DNA from: Eublepharis macularius
Lineage: Eukaryota; Chordata; Lepidosauria; Squamata; Eublepharidae
Assembly (NCBI RefSeq): GCF_028583425.1
Contig: NC_072793.1
Span: 172,213,681-172,277,680 of the forward strand
Direction of reading: 5' to 3'
Length of the DNA stretch: 64,000 bases
Positions 6,769 through 52,134 of this stretch are shown here, piece after piece (within the stretch, counting starts at the first letter, position 1; each line of letters opens with the position of its first letter). Below the pieces are notes generated by a model. The model was not told the DNA's origin. It ran no database searches and saw nothing but the letters and a program-made list of their open reading frames with translations. The translations under genes and the position numbers were made by a program.

Positions 6769-8826
<2,058 letters not shown>

Positions 8827-19320: not shown

Positions 19321-20274
<954 letters not shown>

Positions 20275-20460
20275 GTGGTGAGAACGTTGGACTGGGATCA
20301 TGGAGATCTGGGTTTGAATCCCCGCTCGGCCATGGGACGTTCCTAGCTGGCTTTGGGCTAAACACATACTCTCAGCCAGAACTACCTCACAAGGTTGTTG
20401 TATGGATGAAATGAAGGGGAAGAAATCAGTGTAAACCACTTTTTTTCCTCATAGGCACAA
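20275..20460 (+). repeat. tRNA-derived SINE (Sauria-like)
   Basis: The head 'ggtagtggtgagaacgttgg' with 'gggtttgaatccccgctcgg' is a tRNA-type A and B box, followed by 'ctctcagccagaactacctc' and 'acaaggttgttgtatggatg', typical of squamate tRNA SINEs. The paralogous copy at 34934-35130 has a complete 5' end. Here the first bases are replaced by zinc-finger sequence, marking a rearrangement breakpoint. Confidence 0.7.
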
Positions 20461-21020: not shown

Positions 21021-22555
21021 CTACTTGAACAAAGAATGCAGGACAGCCGTGCCAACAGCTGATTCACGCCGTGCATTCACGTCCACAGAATAATGTTTGA
21101 TAAAAGTGTCTGTAGTGGACCACGTCGCAGCTTGGCAGACGTCCCGGAGCGGCACTCCTCGCAGGAAGGCAGCAGAAGCAGCTTGCGCTCGAGTGGAATG
21201 AGCGGTAACCAACAAGGGGCACTGGACTCCAGCTTGCCGATAACAAAGTTTAATCGTAGACACAATCCAGCGAGAGATGGACTGAGCAGAAGCAGGTGAG
21301 CCCTTGCGAGGGCCAGAGTAACATAAAAACAGGGCAGGAGACTTCCTGAAACATTTGGTGCGATGTAAATAAAACAATAAAGCACGTTTTACATCCAATG
21401 TGTGTAGTGCACGTTCCCCTGGAGACGAGGGTGTCGGAAAGAAGGGAGGAACACCTTTTGCTGCAGGTGAAATTTGGAGACCACCTTGGGCAGAAACTCC
21501 ATGCTAGTGTGGAGCATGACCGTACCAGGGAAAAACTGCAGGAAGGGAGGGTCACACCGCAGGGCAGACAGCTCCCCAACACGTCTAGAGGACGTGACCG
21601 CCACCAGAAAGGCTACCTTTTGCGTGAGCAAAGGCAAGGGACAGGCGGACAGGGGCTCAAAGGGCTGGAGCATCAGTTGGGAGAGAACCAGGGACAGACT
21701 CCACTGAGGAATGGGAGGGGCCCTAGGAGGGAAGGTCTTGAACAGGCCCTTCAGGAACTGCTTGGAAAGCCAGTGGGTAAAAACGGTCTTTCCGTCAATC
21801 TGCTCGTGGAAAGCAGAGATCGCAGCCATGTGGACCTTAATGCTCGAGAAGGCAAGACCCTGTGAGCACAAATACAGGAGGTAGTCCAGAATGATAGGTA
21901 AGGGGCAATCAAAGGGAGAAACCCCCTTGGGGGCCAACCACCCGGAAAAACGGGACCACTTCCTCTGGTAGGACAGCCTTGTTGAAAGCTTCCTGGCATT
22001 CAGTATGACCTTAAGAACCTCTGAGGAGAGGCCTACTCCGGAGCGCACAGGAGCCAGGCGGCTAGGCTCAGAACTGCCACATTGTGGTGCCTGACCCCAT
22101 CCCTGGTCAATAGGTCCGGGGCCGGTGGTAGAACTAGGCACCGTCCCTGTGAAAGGGAGAGTAAGAGAGGGAACCAATCCTGGTGAGGCCACTTCGGGGC
22201 GATCAGGATACAGTGGGTGTTGAAGGCCCTCATCCTGGAGAGGACCTTGTGCAGGAGTGGGAAGGGCGGGAAGGCATAAAAGAGCCCTGGGGACCAGGGT
22301 ATCTGGAAGGCATCCCCTAGGGAGTGACGGCCAATTCCGGCCCGGGAGCAGAACAGCGGGGCCTGCGTGTTGTGGGCCGTGGCGAAGAGGTCGATGAGAG
22401 GTGTACCCCATGTGCGAAAAACCTGGTGGAGGTAAGCCCTGTTGAGGGACCACTCGTGTTGAGGCAGAAACACCCTGCTTAGCGTGTCCGCTGCGGTGTT
22501 GAGCTCCCCTGCAATGTGAACGGCCCTGGGAAGGACGTTGTTGACCATGGCCCAT
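21021..22555 (-). other. DIRS tyrosine recombinase region (fossil part)
   Basis: The translation has the pattern of DIRS-type recombinases: RLSYQRKWSRFSGWL, SSIKVHMAAISAFH, ATSSRRVGELSAL with the first catalytic Arg, and a later HSTRAQAASAAF segment carrying the His-x-x-Arg pair. It overlaps the end of the reverse transcriptase frame, as is usual in DIRS. Part of the 20614-26388 element. Confidence 0.85.
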
Positions 22556-23931
22556 TTCCAGAGAGTCGTTGCTTCCCTGCAGAGCTTGAGCGAGACCGTT
22601 CCTCCCTGCTTGTTGAGGTAGTAGCAGGCTGTGGTATTGTCCGACAGGACCTGAACCCTCCTGTTCCGGATGGCATCTGCAAAAGAAGCAAGGGAGTAAC
22701 GGATCGCTCTAAGCTCTAAAAGGTTGATGTGCATGGATGCCTCAGACGGGGACCAGACGCCCTGAGCTGAGAGCTGCCCACAGCGTCCTCCCCATCCCAA
22801 GTTGGAGGCGTCAGTATAGACGGTGACCTCTGCCAGGAAGGGGCCGAAAGGACAACCTTCAGACAGGTTTCCAGGGACAGCCCACCAGGCCAGAGAGCGC
22901 TGCACCACCCTGGGGATGGAGAACTTCTGATGCTGGCCCATAGTGAGGGGGTTGTACCTCCGAACGAACCAGTTTTGCAGAGGCCTCATATGGAGGCGTG
23001 CAAAGAAAACCACCCCTGTGGAGGAGGCCATAAGGCCAAGCAAGGTTTGGATCAAAAGGGCAGTTTGATACCGGTTGTGCAGAAAATGCCGGGCTAGAGA
23101 GGAAAGCCTGGCCAAGCGGTCCGGGGGCAGGTAGGCTCTGCCCTGTAGCGAATCGAAGTGAACCCCAATAAACCTAATGGCTGTGCCCGGGGTCAGGATA
23201 GACTTATCCCCATTAACCACCAAGCCCAACCTAGCCAGTACAGACAAAGTGAGGGCAATATGGGCCCGGAGCGAGTCAGCTGAGGGTCCCACCAGGAGCC
23301 AGTCATCCAGGTATGGGTAGATAAAGCATCCCTTGGACCGTAGGTATGCCACCACGGTGGCCATGCACTTCGTAAAAACCCTGGGTGCAGAGGCCAGCCC
23401 AAAGGGCAACACCGTATATTCATACACAGAATCCCCATAGACAAACCGCAGGTATTTTCTGTGGCTCTCGAAAATGGAGATGTGGAAGTAGGCGTCTTTT
23501 AAGTCTAGAATAGCTAGCCAAACGCCAACCTCCAGGAGCTCTATGACCCGTGTCAGGGTCAACATCCGAAATTTCTCAACCCTTAAATAACTGTTGAGGC
23601 CCCTAAGGTCCAAAATGGGCCGGGAACCTCCATCCTTCTTATCCACAAGGAAGTACCTCGAGTAAAACCCCCAAGGGGAAGTAGCGACATTGACCACCCG
23701 GACAGCACCTTTGTTCACCAACTCTATAACATTATTGTGTAACACAACATCACAACATGGAGAACAATGGGGAGGGAGAGAAAGAGGAGGTGCATCTGTA
23801 AACATCAATCTGTAACCATGGGCCACAATGGACAGGACCCAAGTGTCAGATGTAACAAGTTGCCAACAGGGCAAAAAAGGCCGAAGCCTGTCCAGAAATC
23901 GGGCAGCAGAGGGGGTGTCCTCAGAGGCCAA
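22033..23931 (-). other. DIRS reverse transcriptase and RNase H (fossil part)
   Basis: 632 codons. The reverse transcriptase core is recognisable: RVVNVATSPWGFYSRYFLV, RPILDLRGLN, DLKDAYFHI, PFGLASAPRVF and the catalytic FIYPYLDDWLLVG. The RNase H part starts at VTVYTDASNLGWGG and has a second acidic patch, LLELRAIRYSL, and LSDNTTACYYLN. This order matches DIRS and gypsy-like reverse transcriptases; the neighbouring tyrosine recombinase settles it as DIRS. Confidence 0.92.
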
Positions 23932-23952
23932 CAGGGGAGTGTCCAGGCTCAG

Positions 23953-26139
23953 TCAGAAGACCGAGGGCTTCTGCCCGGAGGTTGAAGGTTTGGGCGAAGA
24001 GGGTTGTTGCCTGCCCTTGGACCGGCCGGAGCGCCTGGAGGAGTGACGCTGCTGGGCCGAGTAGGATCGGTGGCCATAGGACTGGCCCGAGAAGAAACGC
24101 CCCTGACGCTGCTGGTAAGGCTGATAAGGGGTCTGGTAGGATCGGAACCGACCGTACCGGTACCTCGGACCCGACGGCTGAGTAGAAGGGGCGACTCCCA
24201 GGGACTTGGCTGTTTGCTGGTTCTTCTTCATCAGGGAGAGGGACTCATCCGTCTTCTCTGAGAAGAGCTGGGGTCCCTCGAAGGGGAAGTCCTCCACTTT
24301 CGCCCTCTTCTCCGGAGGCAGGGCCGTGGATTGGAGCCAGGCGTGTCGGCGCAAGACCACCGAAGTTGCCATCGAGCGCGCTGCAGAGTCGACGGCGTCC
24401 TTGCCAGCTGTCATCTGCTGTTTTGACAGCCTCATGGCCTCAGCTTGGAGGGCCTTCACCAAGTGGCGGCGATCTTCAGGGAGATCGGAGAGGTAAGAGG
24501 ACAGCCGTTTCCAGAGGAACAAGTTGTAGGATCCCATTATGGCCTGGAAGTTGGCAATACGAAATCCCAAAGAAGCGGACGAGTAGAGCTTCCTGCCCAT
24601 GCCATCCAGTTTCCTGCCCTCACGGTCTGATGGAGCCGACGAGGAACCATAATGGAACCGAGCCTGGCCTTCCTCCGCCACGATGGACGAGGGCTTCGGG
24701 TGATTGAAGAGGTAAGGGCAATCGTCCTGCTTTAAACGGTAGTACCTCTCAACCTTCTTCGCCGTCGCCGGCATGGACGCCGGTGCTTGCCAGAGCGCAA
24801 GAGCGTTGTCAACAAAATCCTCCACAGGGGGAAATGCCACCGATGCGGGAGACCCCGAATACAGCGCCTCTAGCAGCTTGCTTTTGGGCTTGGAGGTCGT
24901 GGAGGAGACGTCTATCTCCAGCGCGGCAGCCATCCTCACCATTTGCTCGGAGAACAGCCTGTAGTCGTCGTTCGGGGATGACGAACGGGGCCCACCCACG
25001 GTGTCATCCGGGGAGGGGTCAGAAGCCGCATCCGAAGAGCACTCTGACGGGGAAGCCAGACCCTCCTCATCCTCGGAATCCGAAAATTCCGGCGAGGTTT
25101 GTGTCGGAACCGAAGACCGGATCGGGGCCGATGGACGAGCCGCAGGAACCGACGGGTGGAGAAGCATGCCAGCCGTTGGAGGAGCGGGCGCAGGGTGCCC
25201 GATTGGCTGAGGCGGAACCGAAGGCTGCTGCAGGAAGGGCACGGACTGCTGGAACCAGGCCACGAAATCCTGCCAGGAGGTCATGTTCCCAATCCCCGCG
25301 ACAGGCTGACAAGGAGGCAGAGGAGCAGGCACCGGGGCAGGCCAGCGAAAAGGTGTCGGAACCGACGAGGTAGACGGCATTGGAACGGAGGCCTCCGAAG
25401 GCGCCGGGGCGGACGGCAAGGAACGCTCGAAAGATTGGAACGGTTCCGGGAAAGGCGGGAACGGTATGAATTCCTCGGGAAGCGACGGAGGAGGCGTGCA
25501 AGGAGGCGACGGGGTGTGGAGACTCACCACATCGTCAGGGATCAGGACCGGCCCAGATGGAGTACCGGGTTGCACAGACGGAGCCGGGGATAAAGTACGG
25601 CCCTTGGTCCTCGATTTCGTCTTGGCCTTCTTGGGCGGGGGCTCCGAAGTAGCCTCTGCGGCCGAAGGCTTGGAGGAGGGCTTCGGCTTGGATGCGGAAC
25701 GCTTCTTGGCCTTCCGACTGGAAGGACGATCCCCGGAACCGGAGTCAGATCGGGCCTCCGGAACGGGTTGCGCCGTCGGTTCCGAGGGGAGCGGCTCTGG
25801 CGACTTACGAGACGGCGCCGGCGACGGAGCGGCAGAGCGGGGCCTATCTCCCGAAGAGCCCGAGGGCTTGGGGGGGAGCAGGTTGGCATCCCACAAAAAG
25901 GCACGGAGCCTTGCCTTTCGATCGCTCCTCGCTTTCGGGGTGAAAGACAGACATATGGGACAACGCTCCACGACGTGTCCCTCGCCCAGCCAGATGAGAC
26001 AGAGCTCATGGCCGTCCAAGTGTGTCATTTTCGTGCCGCACTTAAGACACTTCTTAAATAAAGATGTCTGCGACATAATGAACGGTATCTCCCGACAGAT
26101 GACAGGGGGAAATACCGACCAGCAGAAGAAACGATCCAA
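23953..26139 (-). other. DIRS gag-like frame (fossil part)
   Basis: 728 codons. A Cys/His cluster lies near the N-terminus (KKCLKCGTKMTHLDGHELC, then CPICLSFTPKARSDRKARL), then a long Pro/Ser-rich low-complexity middle, a conserved-looking block around VERYYRLKQDDCPYLF and a Gln/Arg/Ser-rich C-terminus. This layout is that of vertebrate DIRS gag-like proteins. Long frames on the opposite strand are shadows of its GC-rich codons. Confidence 0.8.
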
Positions 26140-30009: not shown

Positions 30010-30147
30010 ATGGTTTCAGGAGAGTTTCTGTGTCGGTCTGCAGTAGAAGAGCAAAGTTTCAGCCCAGTAGCACATTAAAGACCAACAAAGAGTTTACAAG
30101 ATACAACCTTTAGAGAGTCAAGCTCCCTTCATCAGATACACAAATCT
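30010..30147. repeat. Fold-back repeat split by the ORF1-only element, left half
   Basis: 'ctgcagtagaagagcaaagt', 'cagcccagtagcacattaaa' and 'tcaagctcccttcatcagat'. The other half resumes at 31714, and the inverse arm (ggtgctactgggcttgaatc) is at about 31798-31817. Confidence 0.6.
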
Positions 30148-31696
30148 ATTCGGTTTCGTTTTCCCGGCCATGTCGGACGTTCCTCTCCGCAGGCTTGGGG
30201 GGAACTGTCTGAGCAGGCTGACTGGGCGGTTGACCCGCGAGGGTTAACCTCCGGGGCTCCCAGGGAGGGAGCCTGGATCCGGGGCGCTGCGGGAAGAACC
30301 CCCTGGAAGCAATGCAGGGGGCAAATTGCCCGTTTGCCCCAACGGAGGCCGGCAGTCTTGCGCAGCACCGCGTGTGCGGCCGGGCCATGAACGGCAATAA
30401 GCAGATTTAAGGTGAAGACCTGTAAGTAAGCGAATCCCTTCTGATTTTTGAGCGTATGCGAAGGATCGGTGGGAATTGAAGCTAAAAGGCGCAGACTTCT
30501 TCCCCTGCACCGAGTTTCGGAACTAAGTTGGCGCCCCCTCCCCCTCCCCTAAGATGGCGACGAGAAAGCAGAGCCCAGCAATGAGTAAATCGGTGACGGC
30601 AACGCTACAAGGGAAGGGGGAAACGCTGGAAGAGCTGGTGAGACGAGCAGTTTTCGATGCTGTGCAGCCTTTTGTAGCGAAACTGAATGAAATGGGGCAA
30701 AAGGTTGATTCTGTGGAGAGCGAGGTGAAAGCCATTAAAGAAACAGCGACCGGAGCAGAGCAGTCTGCACACGAGAACGCAGTACTCATGAAAGCAACAA
30801 GTAAGGAAGTGAAGCTTTTGGAGAACCAAATAATAGGATTACAAGTGGACCGTGCCCAAACGGTATTGCGTCTTCAAAATGTAAAAGAAGAGCAAAGTGA
30901 AAATTTAAAAGATTTGGTGTCTGGACTTTTGGCGCCATTTGCAAAGGCAACTAAAGAAGAGATTAAAAACGACATTTTGGAAGTCCGGCGGATATCTTCA
31001 AAGTATGCAATGAAGCGGCAGCTGCCTCGCGAGATTATTATTGATTTTTCATCTAAGAAGACTCGGGACACCATCTTATATAATTCGTATAATGTGGACT
31101 TGGACTATTTGGGCAATAAGGTTAAAATATTGAAGGACGTTCCATTTTTGGCTCGTAAGAGGAGATTCAAGTACAAGGGACTTGCGGCTTCCTTGAGGAA
31201 ATGCGATATAAAATATAAATGGCTGTTTCCAGAAGGCGTCTGGTTCAGATATAAAGATCAAACCTACAAGATTACATCGGACGTGCAGCTGACAGAGTTT
31301 TTGTTTAACCATCAGGAGTTTCAGCAGGAAGAAAGTTCGAAGTCTGAAGGGGAAAGTGGGGGGGAAGAGAGAGCGGGCGCAGCTGCTCCAGCTGCGCAGA
31401 GAGAATTGAGACCGAGACGCAAAGGGGGGGGGGGAAGAGGTGCTGATCCTGATTATAATTTGTATTGTATAAGACCTACCAATCTGATAGCATATTAGAA
31501 AGTTAACTCTTAAGAAAAATTGCAGTATGAAGGGAATACAAGACATGTAGAGTAGTGTCTGTTGTTTGTATGTTGATTTGTCCTTTTCCCAGTTTTCCCT
31601 TCTCCCTTTTTTTTCTTCCCTTCCCCTTTATACTTTTGTAGTTTTCTGTAGTTTTTTATGTTAGATATTGAAAAAATAAAAAACTTTATAAAAAAA
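30148..31696 (+). mobile_element. ORF1-only L1-type retroelement (HAL1-like)
   Basis: A 1.55-kb insertion bounded by a perfect 17-bp duplication, atcagatacacaaatct, at 30131-30147 and 31697-31713. It has a GC-rich 5' leader of about 400 bases, one intact frame (30554-31498), a short 3' UTR with a long pyrimidine tract (31580-31630) and an A-rich tail after 'aaaataaaaaactttat'. No endonuclease or reverse transcriptase sequence is present. The perfect duplication and open frame point to recent mobilisation in trans by an L1. Mammalian HAL1 has this plan; I do not know of a squamate counterpart. Confidence 0.85.
30554..31498 (+). CDS. L1-type ORF1 protein
   Basis: 314 codons, ATG (ATGGCGACGAGAAAG) to TAG, uninterrupted. 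Residues 1-100 have the heptad-rich look of the ORF1p coiled coil (e.g. VDSVESEVKAIKET). The middle, QTVLRLQNVKEEQSENLKDL to YAMKRQLPREIIIDFSSKK, matches the RRM region, and LARKRRFKYKGLAASLRKCD to FPEGVWFRYKDQTYKI the C-terminal domain. The last 55 residues are an added acidic then Arg/Gly-rich tail (ESGGEER ... RELRPRRKGGGGRG) I do not expect in L1 ORF1p. Known ORF1p is a trimeric RNA-binding chaperone of the L1 particle. It differs clearly from the ORF1 of the L1 at 46210-52134. Confidence 0.85.
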   Translation: MATRKQSPAMSKSVTATLQGKGETLEELVRRAVFDAVQPFVAKLNEMGQKVDSVESEVKAIKETATGAEQSAHENAVLMKATSKEVKLLENQIIGLQVDRAQTVLRLQNVKEEQSENLKDLVSGLLAPFAKATKEEIKNDILEVRRISSKYAMKRQLPREIIIDFSSKKTRDTILYNSYNVDLDYLGNKVKILKDVPFLARKRRFKYKGLAASLRKCDIKYKWLFPEGVWFRYKDQTYKITSDVQLTEFLFNHQEFQQEESSKSEGESGGEERAGAAAPAAQRELRPRRKGGGGRGADPDYNLYCIRPTNLIAY

Positions 31697-31713
31697 ATCA
31701 GATACACAAATCT

Positions 31714-32180
31714 GAAGGATTATATGGCATTCGTATCGGAGGATGGGAGCTGGACTCTTGAAATCTGGTAGCTTGGAAACTCCTTGGTGTTCTTTCTGGT
31801 GCTACTGGGCTTGAATCTTGGCTTTTCCCAGCTGCTACGAGATGAGTGAAGCTGTGTGGAATCCATCAAGGATTTCTCTCCTGGTCGTGGGGGGAAGACA
31901 TTCTCAGACCGGGTTGATTCATTACCTCAGGATAAGATGGATTTTCACCTCTGTCTACTCAGCTGAGAAGAGGAACCAAAACCTCCAGCCAACTTCTGCC
32001 ATGACAATCAAACTCTCTACACTGGGAACTATGTGCTTAAAGCTGAGCCTTCTAAGCCATGGGATGGCATGTGACGAACAGAAGGTATCCAGGCGCTTCT
32101 GAATCTGGCCCAGGATTATCATCCCTGGTCATGGTCCAACTCCAGTTCCAAGTGTTCCAATGTGCTCCAATGAGCGGGAT
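31714..32180. other. Rest of the split repeat and unassigned sequence
   Basis: To about 31835 it is the inverse arm of the fold-back repeat. After that nothing is recognised until the 3' flank of the minus-strand ZNF gene (from about 32185). Confidence 0.45.
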
Positions 32181-32271: not shown

Positions 32272-34200
<1,929 letters not shown>

Positions 34201-44485: not shown

Positions 44486-45873
44486 CAGGAGGTGTGTGGG
44501 AGTCAGAAAATGAAAAGAAACATCATCCACTTGTGAATGAAAACATTGAATATTGTGATGCCCTGAGGAAGGAGGAGAGAAAACACCCATCCGTAGGGAG
44601 GAGAAATTTCAGTCTTTTAAAGGATGGTGACTGTCATGAAATTCAATTAATTCCAAACATATGCAAAGAAGACAATAGGAATAAGTGCTCTGCAAGTAAG
44701 GAAAATATTTCTGAAAAATCAGGAATCAATATGCATTGCAACACACATAGCAAAAAGAAAAAACATCTTCGGCTGAAGTGTGGTAAAAGCTATGGGAAGA
44801 AACATAGCCTAACATCCTATCAAAGAATTCATAAAGGGGAGAAAGCATATAAATGCCTGGAATGTGGAAAAGGCTTTAGTTACAGCGGAAGCCTTATTTC
44901 CCATCAAAGAATTCACAGTGGAGAGAAACCATATAAATGCCTTGAGTGTGGAAAAAGCTTCAGTCAGAGTGGAAACCTAACCTCCCATCAAAGAATTCAC
45001 ACAGGGGAGAAGAAATACAAATGCTTGGAATGTGGAAAATGCTTCCGTTGGAGGGGCAACTTTATTTCCCATCAAAGAATTCACACACAGGAGAAACCGT
45101 ATAAATGCCTGGAATGTGGGAAAAGCTTCAGTCGGAGAGATTACCTAACTTCCCATCAAAGAATCCACACAGGGGAGAAGAAATTTAAATGCCTGGAGTG
45201 TGGAAAAAACTTCAGTCAAAGTGGAAGCCTTAAAACACATCAAAGAATTCACACAGGGGAAAAGCCGTATAAATGCCTGGAGTGTGGAAAAAGCTTCAAT
45301 GAGAGTGGAAAACTTAGTGACCATCGAAAAATTCACACAGGGGACAAAAAACATAAATGTCTGGGGTGTGGAAAGAAGTTCATTCATGGCGGACATCTTA
45401 CTTCCCATCAAAGAATTCACACAGGGGAGAAACCATATAAATGCCTGGAGTGTGGAAAAAGCTTTACCCAGAGTTCACACCTTACTTGCCATGAGAGAAT
45501 GCACAGAGGGGAGAAACCATATAAATGCCTGGAATGTGGAAAGAAGTTCATTCATGGTGGATATCTTACTTCCCATCAAAGAATTCACACAGGAGAGAAA
45601 CCATATGTATGCCTAGAATGTGGAAAAAGCTTCAGTCAGAGTGGATTCCTAACCTCCCATCAAAGAATTCACACAGGGGAGAAGAAATACAAATGTCTGG
45701 AATGTGGAAAATGTTTCTGTTGGAGGGGCAGCTTTATTTCCCATCAAAGAATTCACACAGGGGAGAAACCATATAAATGCCTGGAGTGTGGAAAAAGCTT
45801 TAGTCAGAACAGAAGCCTTACTTTCCATAAGAGAATTCATACAGGGGAGAAGCCAGATAAATGTTTGGAATGA
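44486..45873 (+). CDS. KRAB-ZNF gene 2, C2H2 zinc-finger exon
   Basis: NAGNAG acceptor (44486 or 44489). With its upstream exons it gives an uninterrupted protein of 555 residues. After a linker and one degenerate finger come 12 C2H2 fingers with intact Cys and His pairs, ending DKCLE-stop. Fingers 7 and 9 ([12 protein letters not shown] and [12 protein letters not shown]) are near copies. The array is shorter than that of gene 1 and arranged differently, though single fingers are shared ([24 protein letters not shown]). It is the best candidate for a working gene in the window: a nuclear sequence-specific repressor with unknown target. A decayed finger stretch continues behind the stop to about 46020. 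Confidence 0.92.
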
Positions 45874-46209: not shown

Positions 46210-46679
46210 TTTTTTTTTAATAAAAATTTTTATTGGTGAGCCCAAATTTAAAAATTGTATACATACATTCAATCCCCTAATTTATTTATTATGACCCCCA
46301 CCCTTTCCTCCCCCCTCCCTTATCGACTTCCAGCAGCTTTCCAACCCCTAATCCATCTTATTACTCAACTTATTTTCATTAATATTCTTCTCTACTATAT
46401 ATCATAACTCTTATTCTAAGCATATTCAAATTCTATTATATACTATATTATACTGTATTCTATAAAAATCCATTACAATATTTATTATACTTCTCATTAA
46501 TTAACTAGATATCTAAATAAAATTCCTTACACATAATACTAACTTATATATATCCCTTTATCTCATAGTTAATCATTCTATCTAGAATTTTCTTACACAT
46601 AAAACTAGCTTAAATTCTAATAGTTAAATTCCCCCTTAATGGTAAAGTCACTTCTCTCTTTCATTTACAATATCTCATT

Positions 46680-49600
46680 TTAATAGTTCTCAAACTGCCA
46701 CAGTTCTCCTTTCACATCCCATTTTTTTTCTAAGTATTGTTTCAACTTCCCCCAGTCTGCAATGTATTGTCCTGGATCAAGATCTTTAAGTTTTCTTGTC
46801 ATTTTATCCATCTCTGCCATGTACAGCAATTTGTAAATCCAATCTTCTATAGTTGGTACTTCTTGCACTTTCCATTTCTGCGCATACAAAAGTCTTGCTG
46901 CTGTTGTCATATAAAATAGCAATGTCCTATACTGCATTGGAACACTTTCCATTCCCAAGTTCAGTAGCAACAATTCTGGGTTCTTGTTTATTTGGATTTG
47001 TAAAATCTCATTTATTACTTCAATTATATCTCCCCAATATTGCTTAGCTACCTCACAAGTCCACCACATATGATATAGCAATCCTTCATGCTTTTTACAT
47101 TTCCAACATTTGTCTGACATATTTGTATTTCCAAGCGCAATTTTCTTTGGTGTCAAGTACCATCTATATATCATTTTGTAGACATTCTCTTTAATATTGG
47201 TACATGTTGAAATTTTTAGTGTATTCTTCCACAAATGCTCCCATGCTTCCATTGTTATTTCTTTATGAAAATTTATTGCCCATTTCACCATCTGGACTTT
47301 TACAATCTCATCTTCGGTATGCAATTTAAGAGTATTTTATAAATCTTAGAAATTTCTTTCTTACCTTCTTGTAAGATCACTTCCTCTAATTCCAAGTTTT
47401 CCATCCTTATTCCTCCCCTTAGGCAGTCCAAATTATAAAGGTCTCTGATCTGTCTATATTGAAACCATCCATAGCAAGGAGACAATTCTTCTTCTGTTTT
47501 AATTTTGGGTACTGAATGTTGTATCTGTATTATCTCCTTATAGGTTAAACATTGCTGTTCACTATCAACAGTTCTCGGATCTATTACTTCATACGGAACT
47601 ACCCATGAAGGAATTCCCTCTTTCATGTGAATCTTATACTTCTTCCAAATGGTAAAAAGGCTTCTCCTGATATAATGATGCAAAAACATAGAGTCCGCTT
47701 TTATTTTATCATACCACAAATACGCGTGCCACCCAAATATTTTTTTATGTCCTTCCAAGGCCAGCAACTTACGATTTTTCAACGTTATCCAATCCTTCAA
47801 CCATGTCAAACATATTGCTTCATAATATAGTCTTATGTTGGGCAGTTGTAAACCACCTCTCTCCTTCACATCCTGCAACACTTTCATTTTTACACGTGGT
47901 TTTTTCCCTGCCCACACAAAGTCAGAAATTTTCCTTTGCCATTTATCAAATTGTTTGGAGTCTCGAATGATTGGAATTGTTTGCAACAGGAACATCACTC
48001 GCGGTAAGACATTCATCTTTACTACCGCAATTCTTCCCAACCATGATAAATTCAATTTATTCCATTTTATCAAATCTCTCTCTATTTGTATCCACAATTT
48101 CTCATAGTTATTCTAGAATAAGTCTATATTTTTGGCTGTTAGTTCAATACCAAGATATTTTACTTTGTTTGTTACCTCACAGTCTGTAATCTCCATCAGC
48201 TCCTGTTGCTTCTGTTTAGTCATGTTTTTACATAATATCTTCGATTTCTTTTTATTTACATAGAAACCGGCCAGATCTCCAAATTCTTTTATTTTCTTTA
48301 TAACCTTTGGCATATTATCAATTGGACCCTCTACTATTAACATTATATCATCCGCAAATGCCCTGACCTTGTAGGCAAATTCCTTTATTTTTATACCTCG
48401 AATTGCATCGTCCTCCCGTATCTGAATCATCAATATTTCCAAGATTAGAATAAACAACAATGGAGATAGAGGGCAACCTTGTCTCGTACCTTTGCTTATT
48501 TTCAGTCTTTTTGTCAAGTCATCATTCACTACAATCGCTGCACATTGGTCTTTATAAATTTCTTTAACCGCTTGTATGAACTTTTCTCCCATTTGCAGCT
48601 TTTCCATAGTGGCAAACATAAAGTCCCAGTTCAAATTGTCAAATGCTTTTTCAGCATCTACGAAGAAAAAACCGACTTCCTTGTCACAATGTTTGTCATA
48701 GTACTCCATAGCATTTATCACTGTCCTTAAGTTATCCTTAATTTGTCTATTGGGTAAAAACCCAGCCTGTTCTTCTGCGATGAATTCCGACAACCATCCT
48801 TTTATCCTTTCTGCCAATACCTTTGCAAAAATTTTATAATCATTGTTCAATAACGAAATTGGTCTATAATTTTTAACATTGGTCACATCTTGCCCCTCTT
48901 TCGGAATCAATGAAATATTAGCTTCATTCCACGTCTCAGGAATCCTTTGACCTTGCATAGCTCCATTCAACACTTCTTTTAAAAAGGGTACTAATTCATT
49001 AGCCATCACTTTGTAAAATTTTGCCATTAATCCATCTGGTCCCGGGGCCTTCCCTAATTTCGTTGACTGTATTGCCTCTTTTATTTCTTCCTCTGTCACT
49101 TCACCATTTAATTTCTCTTTCCATTCTTCAGAAATTGCCGGAAGTTTCATCTTCTCTAAATACTCGACTATGGGTTCTTTATTCACCTCTTTTCTTTGGT
49201 ACAGTTTGGCATAAAATTTAAAAAAGGCTCTGCTGATGGCAGCTTGATCCATAAATATTTTATCATCTTCCCGAATTCTAGTTATGGTTTTCTTCTCCTT
49301 CCTTTTTTTTAATTGCCACGCCAAGTATTTCCCAGGTTTATTTGCCCCTTCAAACGACTTCTGATCCATTCTCTTTAAGTTCCATTCTATTTCTTTGTTG
49401 TTCATTGCCGCCAACTGTTCTTGCAGTATTCTAATATCCTGGTATATTTTCTTTTTCCCTGGTCTTTTCTTAAGTTGTACCTCTTTGGCTTTTATTTTTT
49501 CCATAATTTCTAATCTTTTCCCCTCTTTTTTCTTCCTAGCTCTTGCGTTCAAGTCCATCAGTATGCCTCTAATCACAGCTTTATATGTGTCCCAAACCTT

Positions 49601-50438
49601 ATTAGTCGACACCTCTTTATTCAGATTACTTTGTACAAAGAATTTGGTCTCTCTCCGCAGCAACTCGACATTCTCTACCGATTGTAGTAGGTCTTCATTT
49701 ATTCTCCATCCTCTTCTTTTATTATTTTTGCCAAATCTCCACATAATTGGATTATGATCTGAGCTTACTTTAGGCATTATTTCCACATCTCTAGTCCATG
49801 GTACTAGTTCTTTGGAAGCCCAGATCATATCAATTCTCGATAAAGTACGATGTCTTGCAGAGTAAAACGTGTATTGTCTATTTTTAGGATTCTGTCTTCT
49901 CCATACATCTTCTAGAGTCTCTTGTTCCTTTAGTGCAAAGAACGACTTTGGCAATATTCCTCTTTTCTTTTTCACAGATGTAGACTTCTTGTCTTCTTCT
50001 ATATTTGTAACTCCATTGAAATCTCCTGCTAAAATTATCTGGTCATAAGACAACTCATCTAAATGTTTCCCCAAGTCTGTAAAGAAATTTTCTTTTGCAC
50101 CATTTGGCGCATATATTCCAATCACCAATATCTTCTTTGAGTTCCAAATTATTTCCACTGCTAAATATCTAGCTTAGCTAAACATCGCTTAGCACTAATT
50201 TAGGTTGCAGCTCTTCCTTTATATACAACACAACTCCCCTTTTCTTCTTCTTTGAAGCAGCTACAAACTCATTTCCTAATTTTGCACATTTCAAATATTT
50301 TCTATCTTGCTTTTTAATATGCGTTTCCTGCAAGCACACTATATTACTTTTTTGCTTTAATAGCCAGTGGAAATCATTCTTTCGCTTACAAGGTGAATTT
50401 AGTCCATTTACATTCCAAGATATAATTTTACACTCCAT
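46680..50438 (-). pseudogene. L1 ORF2 (endonuclease and reverse transcriptase), disrupted
   Basis: Starts at MECKIISWNVNGLNSP (ATG at 50438), the N-terminus of the L1 AP-type endonuclease. Endonuclease motifs: IVCLQETHIK, ILAGDFNG and SSDHNPIMW. Reverse transcriptase motifs: YRPISLLNNDYKIFAKVLA, AFDNLNWDF, GTRQGCPLSPLLF and the catalytic AFADDIMLIVEG. The C-terminal Cys motif is CWKCKKHEGLLYHMWWTC. Disruptions: a short insertion with frameshift and stops at about 50160-50180, a TAG at about 48115, and a frameshift at about 47310. Confidence 0.93.
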
Positions 50439-51246
50439 GATCAAATTCTCGTGCATTTTGATGTCCTTTTCATTTTCCCTAATAAACACTTCCATCTCAT
50501 GACCAGATCTGATGACTTTCCTTTCTCCCCCAAACTCAAAGGCCAGTCCTTCCGGTATTTCCCATCTGTATCTGATTTTCAAGTCCTTTAGCATCTGGAC
50601 CAGCTCTCTGTATTTTTTCCGATCCAACAAAACCGCTCTAGGTATTTCCTTCATAATTCTCACCACTTTACCGTCGATTTCTAATGGATCTTGGAATTGT
50701 TTAGTCACAATTTGCTCTCTTGTATTTCTTGTCGTAAATCATATCCCTTGGTAGCTTCCTCTGAGCCACAAATCTTGAGTTAATTCTGTATACCACGTCT
50801 AGAAGAGCTGCAATTTCCTCTTCTTCCTTCCCCAGGTAAACTGCCAAAATTTCTGTGATCTGCTCCCGGGCTGTTTTTCCCCCCGTCTCCGGGATCGAAC
50901 GAAATCTGAGTTGCTTTTCCATTTGTTTACTTTCTGCGACGGCGATTCTCCCTCTCATTGCACTCATCTCGGTTTTCTGCGCGTCTGCTAGAGATTCAAC
51001 CGTATTTTCTACTACATTTACTCTCTGCTGTGTAGCTTGTAGATCGTCTTGTATTTTGTCCACACCTTTCGTCAACTCTGCCATCTCCGACTTAAGTGTC
51101 TCTTTAAAGTCTTTAAACTCTCTTGCCATCTCTTGTATCATTTCCTTAAGCTCTTTATTTCCCTCTGCAATTGCCGCCTGCCACTCCTTCTTCGACATCG
51201 TGGGGCTAGCTTTGCTCCGCTCCCACGAGTCCGCCCTCTTCCTCAA
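50439..51246 (-). pseudogene. L1 ORF1, frameshifted
   Basis: The N-terminal part (51246-50701) has a long coiled coil (KELKEMIQEMAREFKDFKET, VDKIQDDLQATQQRVNVVEN) and the start of the RRM-like domain (EKQLRFRSIPE). A frameshift near 50705 moves the rest to another frame (ILVGRKKYRE-type region: LLDRKKYRELVQMLKDLKIR, IPEGLAFEFGGERKVI). That second frame runs without a stop into the ORF2 start. Confidence 0.85.
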
Positions 51247-52134
51247 ATCCGTGGCGCTTGTCTAATATTTTCTACTATTTTTAAAAGTTCCCAATCAATT
51301 AAATCTTATCCAGAGCCATTTTACACTGTCCAAAATGTCGGGCGTTTTTTCTCTATGGTTTTATGTGAAGCACTCGCCCATACCTTCTCCAAGATGGCCT
51401 ACTTCCGTTTCCACTGAAGCCGCAATTTGCCCTTCTGAAAAATGGCGATCTTCTACTTCCGGAATCCACAGAAAGCCACTTCTCTCAAAGCTTTCTATGG
51501 TCTTGACGTACTTCCTGTTCCTTTACAGTTCACAGCAACTCTCGCGATGATAGAACTTTCCCACAGTCCGCTATCTCTCCGCCGCCGCAGGTATGTAAAC
51601 AATAATCAACTTTCGGTGCTAACTTCACTTTACAATGTCTCTTTTTAAAATTTTTCCTTGCCGGAACTTCCCCTTTTAGTAATCAATCTGTTGCAGTTTT
51701 TAAATCCTCCTTAGTATTTTATTTCTTGTATTAAACTGTCCCGTTTCGAGAGATAGCAATCTTTACCTTCTTAGACGTTTTCTTGGGTTGTAATCGCTGC
51801 TTCTGTTATCAAATCAAATAGGTTTCCCTTGCTGCTTTACCGAGGCTTGGGCATGTAGGTCTTATGCCAACAAGAATGACTCCAGAGCCGCTGCAGAGAT
51901 CTTAGCACACCTGTCTTCGGGTGGGACCTCAAGGGTGGGTGAGAGTTCGTTGCACAGAACCCCCCCCTCGCCCGAGATCAACGCGCCCTCAGGTTAAAAT
52001 GCGTACTTGCCTGTTCTCCGCCTGAGAACAGGTGGCTGCGGGCTGACGGCGCCTCTCCAGCCTTCCAAACAGCGGCCCGGACAGCTCAGCTCTTAGAGCT
52101 GCGTCAGACCTCCATGGATCCCAAACTGGAAGTC

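Follow-up and report, generated by a model that had tools for sequence, protein, structure and literature searches.

Whether a 1.55-kb insertion in the genome of the squamate Eublepharis macularius belongs to a family of mobile elements that encodes an L1-type ORF1 and dispenses with ORF2, or is a full-length L1 that lost its ORF2 at this one place, is the question raised by a stretch of 64,000 nucleotides of contig NC_072793.1 (positions 172,213,681 to 172,277,680, assembly GCF_028583425.1), referred to below as the window. The original prediction, made from the letters of the window, proposed the former, with movement by L1 machinery in the manner of the half-L1 (HAL1) elements of mammals, for which the paper of Bao and Jurka 2010 is said to be the original description. 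Mammalian HAL1s are characterised in a section of PMC5322556 as ORF1-only, poly-A-tailed, duplication-flanked elements with nearly 2,100 human copies that depend on LINE RT/EN, and dependence on the RT/EN of L1 is the view expressed in excerpts of PMC5322556, PMC5753468 and PMC4859970. The same section of PMC5322556 predicts a relaxed L1 system in lizards.

Results

Organisation of the insertion

The insertion is 1,549 bp long (30148-31696) and lies between exact 17-bp duplications (Table 1). The perfect duplication, the single open frame of 314 codons and the A-rich tail, which follows AATAAA, were all recovered as originally described. The leader is presumed to combine a Pol II promoter, a role suggested by its position, with a UTR. 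Since 209 other positions in the window carry a non-simple 17-mer that recurs 1,000-2,500 bp away (the 12 positions listed fall in 7126-8246), a 17-bp repeat is by itself no proof of insertion, and the real test is provided by the duplications at 37 of 40 copies described below.

Table 1. Coordinates of the insertion, its parts and the L1 of the same window.
Feature	Position	Strand	Basis
5' target-site duplication, ATCAGATACACAAATCT	30131..30147	+	17/17 exact repeat; 2 occurrences in window
5' leader, 406 bp, first letters ATTCGGTTTCG	30148..30553	+	match begins at position 1 in 33/40 copies and at positions 2-5 in 5 others
ORF1, 314 codons and stop, ATG start: coiled coil, RRM, CTD, disordered tail (domains predicted)	30554..31498	+	ORF list, homology, profile, fold, selection
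Long helix, predicted, residues 25-101	30626..30856	+	AlphaFold2 model, Foldseek 2ykp
RRM and C-terminal domain (CTD), residues 104-252	30863..31309	+	alignment, profile, AlphaFold2 model, fold comparison
Disordered tail, acidic then Arg/Gly-rich, residues 260-314	31331..31495	+	pLDDT <50; end set by G run
Run of 11 G; ~8-13 among copies; length sets one of three C-termini	31424..31434	+	40-copy alignment
3'UTR, 198 bp, with AATAAA and short A-rich tail	31499..31696	+	sequence reading; at least 40 3'UTR matches
3' target-site duplication, ATCAGATACACAAATCT	31697..31713	+	exact repeat of 30131-30147
Window L1, ORF2 in at least three frames, 15-bp duplication AGAATATCTAAAATC, A-rich tail	46210-52134	minus	ORF list, end reading

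The flanks at 30052-30139 and 31733-31820 form an 88-nt inverted repeat of 76% complementarity; hence, the insertion site was close to the middle of an imperfect palindrome that predates the element. Elsewhere in the window, long frames at 21389-26139 (minus strand) resemble, in translation, a reverse transcriptase and a recombinase-like product, and this region may be a DIRS-type element. Frames with arrays of C2H2 zinc fingers were recognised by eye at 6777-8561, 19810-20439, 32496-33734 and 44494-45873.

The product of ORF1

As judged by a single sequence, the L1 ORF1-type label is weak: the match to Pfam Transposase_22 fell below the cutoff (E=0.033), and a phmmer comparison with LINE-1 ORF1P gave E=0.087. 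It was secured by three further comparisons. ORF1 of the window L1 matches that of the element at E=4e-16 with 24% identity. A profile built from ten aligned ORF1s, including three of other L1-type loci, retrieved 2ldy (human LINE-1 ORF1p) at E=5.9e-18; nine of the ten aligned ORF1s match Pfam Transposase_22 at E values up to 1. An AlphaFold2 model (mean pLDDT 70.3, pTM only 0.47) consists of a long helix, an RRM and a CTD, and Foldseek aligned it with 2ykp_A, the human ORF1p trimer, at E=8.9e-12 and a TM-score of 0.74 by target, the best twelve fold matches all being human LINE-1 ORF1p. The L1 ORF1-type middle and C-terminal domains of the original prediction are thus borne out. The protein is predicted to have the L1 ORF1p fold of coiled coil, RRM and CTD, and the modelled helix would correspond to the coiled coil of a trimer like that of L1 ORF1p. 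Identity to the local L1-type ORF1s compared (that of the window L1 and three found by the Pfam profile) is 22-26%.

An unusual acidic, Arg/Gly-rich tail of about 55 residues had also been proposed, and this claim stands in part. The extension is real and is predicted to be disordered (Table 1), but the extreme end differs in length among copies and its frame is not conserved. The C-terminus falls at ~296, 305 or 314 aa among copies, depending on the length of the G run; as that length varies, the last part of the tail is no conserved feature.

Copies in the genome

The genome (2.24 Gb, 72 contigs) was searched with the whole element, which gave 42 matches (best 40 of 5,098 candidates scored). 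After removal of L002, a duplicate of L041, and with two matches at 72-82% set aside, the comparison set comprised 40 copies, including the window copy, at 93.7-100% identity. All but two are essentially end to end, the exceptions being L027 and L033, which start at positions 16 and 138, respectively; the 3' end is missed by 1-32 bases in nine of the 40. The 5' leader is shared from its first letters by most copies (Table 1). An ORF1 30-mer occurred 589 times genome-wide with at most one mismatch, as compared with 0 for the reversed control. A search with the leader alone gave at least 40 matches at 94-100%, and one with the ORF1 protein at least 126 matches at 89-100% identity, 93 of those listed being without a stop (manual count). 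The insertion is hence one of an ORF1-encoding non-autonomous family and no lone copy. Two subfamilies, each with many near-identical members, were distinguished within this family (family 1). Against the 40-copy set, a single substitution in 1,530 columns is private to the window copy (median copy 0.39%, maximum 1.12%), which indicates a young insertion.

Exact duplications of at least 10 bp flank 37 of the 40 copies, as compared with 0 of 400 mismatched flank pairs, and the remaining three have no exact duplication of 10 bp. Most duplications are 15-22 bp long, 17 bp being the commonest length, and the preferred nick is YT/AARA-like (YT/AA; slash, nick position). In 23 of the 37 copies, the duplication is separated from the 5' start by G or GG, in nine by other letters and in five (the window copy included) by nothing; the extra 5' G would fit reverse transcription of a cap. 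The tails are A-rich, and some appear by eye to start early within the 3'UTR, as if from alternative polyadenylation. Ends, duplications and A-rich tails of this kind are typical of Pol II mRNA copied by target-primed reverse transcription of L1 type.

Three copies of the ORF1-only lineage (L062, L070 and L033) contain different inserts that end directly before GGGCCATGGA, at leader position ~232-242. An intron at position ~242 was considered for L062 and L070 and rejected: the inserts are different fold-back sequences flanked by the same 14-bp duplication, GGGCCATGGAGAAC, so no splicing is involved. The L070 insert is self-complementary over 1,049 bp at 99% and has relatives elsewhere in the genome; it is no parasite specialised on the leader, as 10 of 10 sampled right flanks elsewhere lie outside the element. 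Of the L033 insert the right end alone was seen, and the 2.2 kb further upstream (L099) gave no leader match. Leader position ~232-242 is an insertion hot spot.

A second, older family

An old copy in L041 is 75% identical to family 1 in DNA and 68-70% in protein. It represents a second family with at least 142 matches, 125 of those listed being without a stop (manual count). Eight members fetched whole all start with ATTCGG or a close variant, have frames of 280-315 aa and are flanked by exact repeats of 9-18 bp, putative target-site duplications. A downstream ORF2 was found in 0 of 14 fetched members. In one of the loci of this family (L087), an ORF2 fragment lies upstream on the opposite strand. 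One match within a frame of 1,302 codons (L085) proved to be a tandem repeat beside ORF1.

In comparison with five family-2 copies, the window copy is 77-79% identical in the leader, 73-74% in ORF1 and 69-71% in the 3'UTR; thus, conservation of the noncoding leader equals or exceeds that of the coding part. Both families retain the sequence around GTAAGTAAGCGAATCCCTTCTG in the leader, where a GTAAGT resembling a splice donor was noted by eye. The leaders of both families also contain an upstream frame of 25 codons, which was discounted as coding, since its differences look by eye mostly amino-acid changing and unconstrained. Three family-1 sequences differ from the old copy of L041 by dS values of 1.57-1.73, near saturation, and pairwise dN/dS between the families is ~0.11. 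The join of ORF1 to the 3'UTR is common to both families, which argues that ORF2 was already absent in their common ancestor and suggests that the ORF2-less plan is old.

ORF2 and the autonomous L1s

No ORF2 is present in the 1,549-bp insertion itself. In a search with ORF2 queries from just two local L1 families, none of 81 distinct ORF1 loci (76 with 400 or more downstream bases) showed an ORF2 that belongs to the element; the positive control, L072, was detected. A same-strand downstream piece of ORF2, restricted to the C-terminal part, occurs at two of the 81 loci. In L030 the piece begins within the 3' duplication of the element and continues beyond it, as would be seen had an older L1 been the target of the insertion; in L059 it lies ~675 bp beyond ORF1, past the end of the element. 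The absence of ORF2 at the same junction in other copies was thus as predicted.

The ends of the element led to the same type of copy. Nine matches of the leader search lie outside the first list; of four fetched, three are complete ORF1-only copies and one is cut off at position 1138. A search with the 3'UTR alone gave at least 40 matches, twelve of them outside the first list. Three of the twelve are the ends of L075-L077 and two adjoin ORF1 matches; six of the remaining seven were fetched, and all six are joined to ORF1 sequence (some 5'-truncated or internally deleted) and none to ORF2. Had the relatives been full-length L1s with ORF2 between the same ends, the family would have been illusory; searches with the element, ORF1, leader and 3'UTR gave ORF1-only copies wherever DNA was fetched. 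No closer autonomous L1 that might serve as a parent was found among the best 40-142 matches scored per search.

Autonomous L1s, represented by the window L1 and L072, encode a related ORF1p, as does the element, but carry ORF2, and their ORF1 is only 23-24% identical to that of the element. Like the element, the window L1 has a target-site duplication and an A-rich tail, whereas its 5' leader is distinct. No end sequence common to the two was found, a blastn search of the window with the element finding the element alone. L1 ORF2 frames of 1,234-1,265 codons with no stop reported account for 11 of 65 matches listed (manual count); one such open-ORF2 L1 starts, by eye, near GACTTCCAGTTCGGG, unlike the element.

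Selection on ORF1

Variants in 66 copies were divided into those of single copies, with nonsynonymous plus stop to synonymous changes at 112:52, and those present in at least four copies, at 22:43 (Fisher p=2.9e-6). Codons 286-314, multi-base codon changes and variants in two or three copies (30:21 and 21:18) were excluded. The neutral expectation is ~72:28; the singletons are near it, and the variants common to at least four copies are mostly synonymous. In the 40 copies picked by DNA alone, a set free of the bias that a choice by protein score would bring, the respective ratios are 78:44 and 8:25 (p=5.9e-5). As shared variants are mostly synonymous and private ones near neutral, selection acted on ORF1 in the source copies.

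The dN/dS check proposed at the outset gave low values, 0.07-0.18 in ten pairs of five sequences. A frame of at least 296 aa is kept in 32 of the 40 DNA-chosen copies, and residues 1-296 are without a stop in the 5'-truncated L033. The open frame had been attributed either to selection on ORF1p or to very recent copying; the variant ratios and dN/dS values favour the first and the one private substitution of the window copy the second, so that both find support.

Discussion

Very probably, the insertion is a full-length copy, inserted very recently, of a non-autonomous family of L1 type; the family would code for an L1-like ORF1p and nothing else and, like HAL1, be copied by L1 ORF2p in trans. 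A Pol II transcript, capped and polyadenylated, would start at ATTCGG and give rise to the element's own ORF1p, which may coat that transcript preferentially in cis. ORF2p, presumably supplied by autonomous L1s of the same genome, would enter the particle, nick a YT/AARA-like site, copy the RNA from the poly-A end and leave duplications of mostly 15-22 bp. This reading draws on copy number, ends, duplications, A-rich tails, the 5' G, the lack of ORF2 at the loci analysed, selection and the open-ORF2 L1s. Counting against L1 as the enzyme source are the lack of detectable shared ends, the ORF1 identity of only 22-26% and the different 5' start. Nick site, tail and open-ORF2 L1s point only indirectly to HAL1-like movement by L1 ORF2p in trans.

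Repeated derivation of the ORF1-only copies from an autonomous parent in this genome that pairs this ORF1 with an ORF2 seems unlikely. A less abundant parent whose ORF1 is 40-70% identical might rank below the best 40-142 matches scored per search, and several origins of HAL1s in mammals are described in part of PMC5753468. In both families, however, at dS ~1.6, ORF1 is followed immediately by a homologous 3'UTR (69-71% identity, five family-2 copies), which suggests one old loss, and the window L1 and the three Pfam-profile ORF1s are all distant (22-26%).

The copies might instead be processed pseudogenes of one ORF1-derived cellular gene, comparable to L1TD1, with the signature of selection being that of the gene. 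ORF2-less, poly-A, duplication-flanked copies and synonymous-rich shared variants are predicted by this origin as well, but nearly all of the best copies (38 of 40) are virtually full length and share a single 5' start, and two divergent families plus two subfamilies of family 1 with many near-identical members would need several source genes. Among the loci fetched for other purposes, no intron-bearing or duplication-free source was met, and we hold this origin to be improbable.

Mobilisation by a LINE other than L1 (CR1, L2 or RTE/Bov-B) is slightly more improbable still. CR1, BovB and L2 are stated to be abundant in squamates in a portion of PMC6050309; against this, the protein is an L1 ORF1p and open L1 ORF2 frames are present in the genome. 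Furthermore, A-rich tails, 15-22 bp duplications and a YT/AARA nick, which the element displays, are L1 traits. A lone internal deletion of a full-length L1 at this locus, which would account for the L1 ORF1p and L1-type ends, is refuted by independent insertions with the same ends, there being 37 other near end-to-end copies among the 40, own duplications at 37 of 40, 589 occurrences of the 30-mer and own ORF2 at 0 of 81 loci.

The preferred reading, an ORF1-only family served by L1 ORF2p, leaves an even chance for a further proposal, that of a long-lived ORF1-only lineage. ORF2 would have been lost before the families split (dS ~1.6), with no autonomous parent surviving; the lineage would have kept its own ORF1p (dN/dS ~0.1) as an RNA-binding partner and would use ORF2p of L1s whose ORF1p is ~23% identical. 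If so, ORF1p, and not ORF2p, would be the part that an element must supply in cis. According to PMC2666806, a Pol II-driven Alu transcript in cultured cells requires ORF1p besides ORF2p, which offers a possible reason for selection on ORF1.

The family shares with mammalian HAL1 the coding of an L1 ORF1p only, without an ORF2 of its own (81 loci), a poly-A tail with target-site duplications (37 of 40 copies) and multiple copies with fixed ends. It differs in the low identity of its ORF1 (22-26%) to the local L1-type ORF1s compared, in a leader unlike those of the L1s seen, in two ORF1-only families with one plan at dS ~1.6, and in a disordered C-terminal tail with a variable end. The element works like a half-L1 and, having been compared by plan alone, is not equated with mammalian HAL1 proper. 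L1TD1, presented in a passage of PMC4161310 as an ORF1-derived protein without ORF2 domesticated in mammals, resembles the element in lacking ORF2 but is a host gene, unlike a multi-copy mobile family. A literature search, mostly of open-access coverage, found no description of an ORF1-only or HAL1-like element in reptiles, a weak argument for novelty.

By retaining ORF1 without ORF2, such elements provide natural experiments on the function of ORF1p. With many young copies, two families and clear selection in one genome, the need for ORF1p in cis can be examined, as can the compatibility of ORF2p with a distantly related ORF1p. The family in E. macularius would suggest that the half-L1 strategy has also arisen outside mammals.
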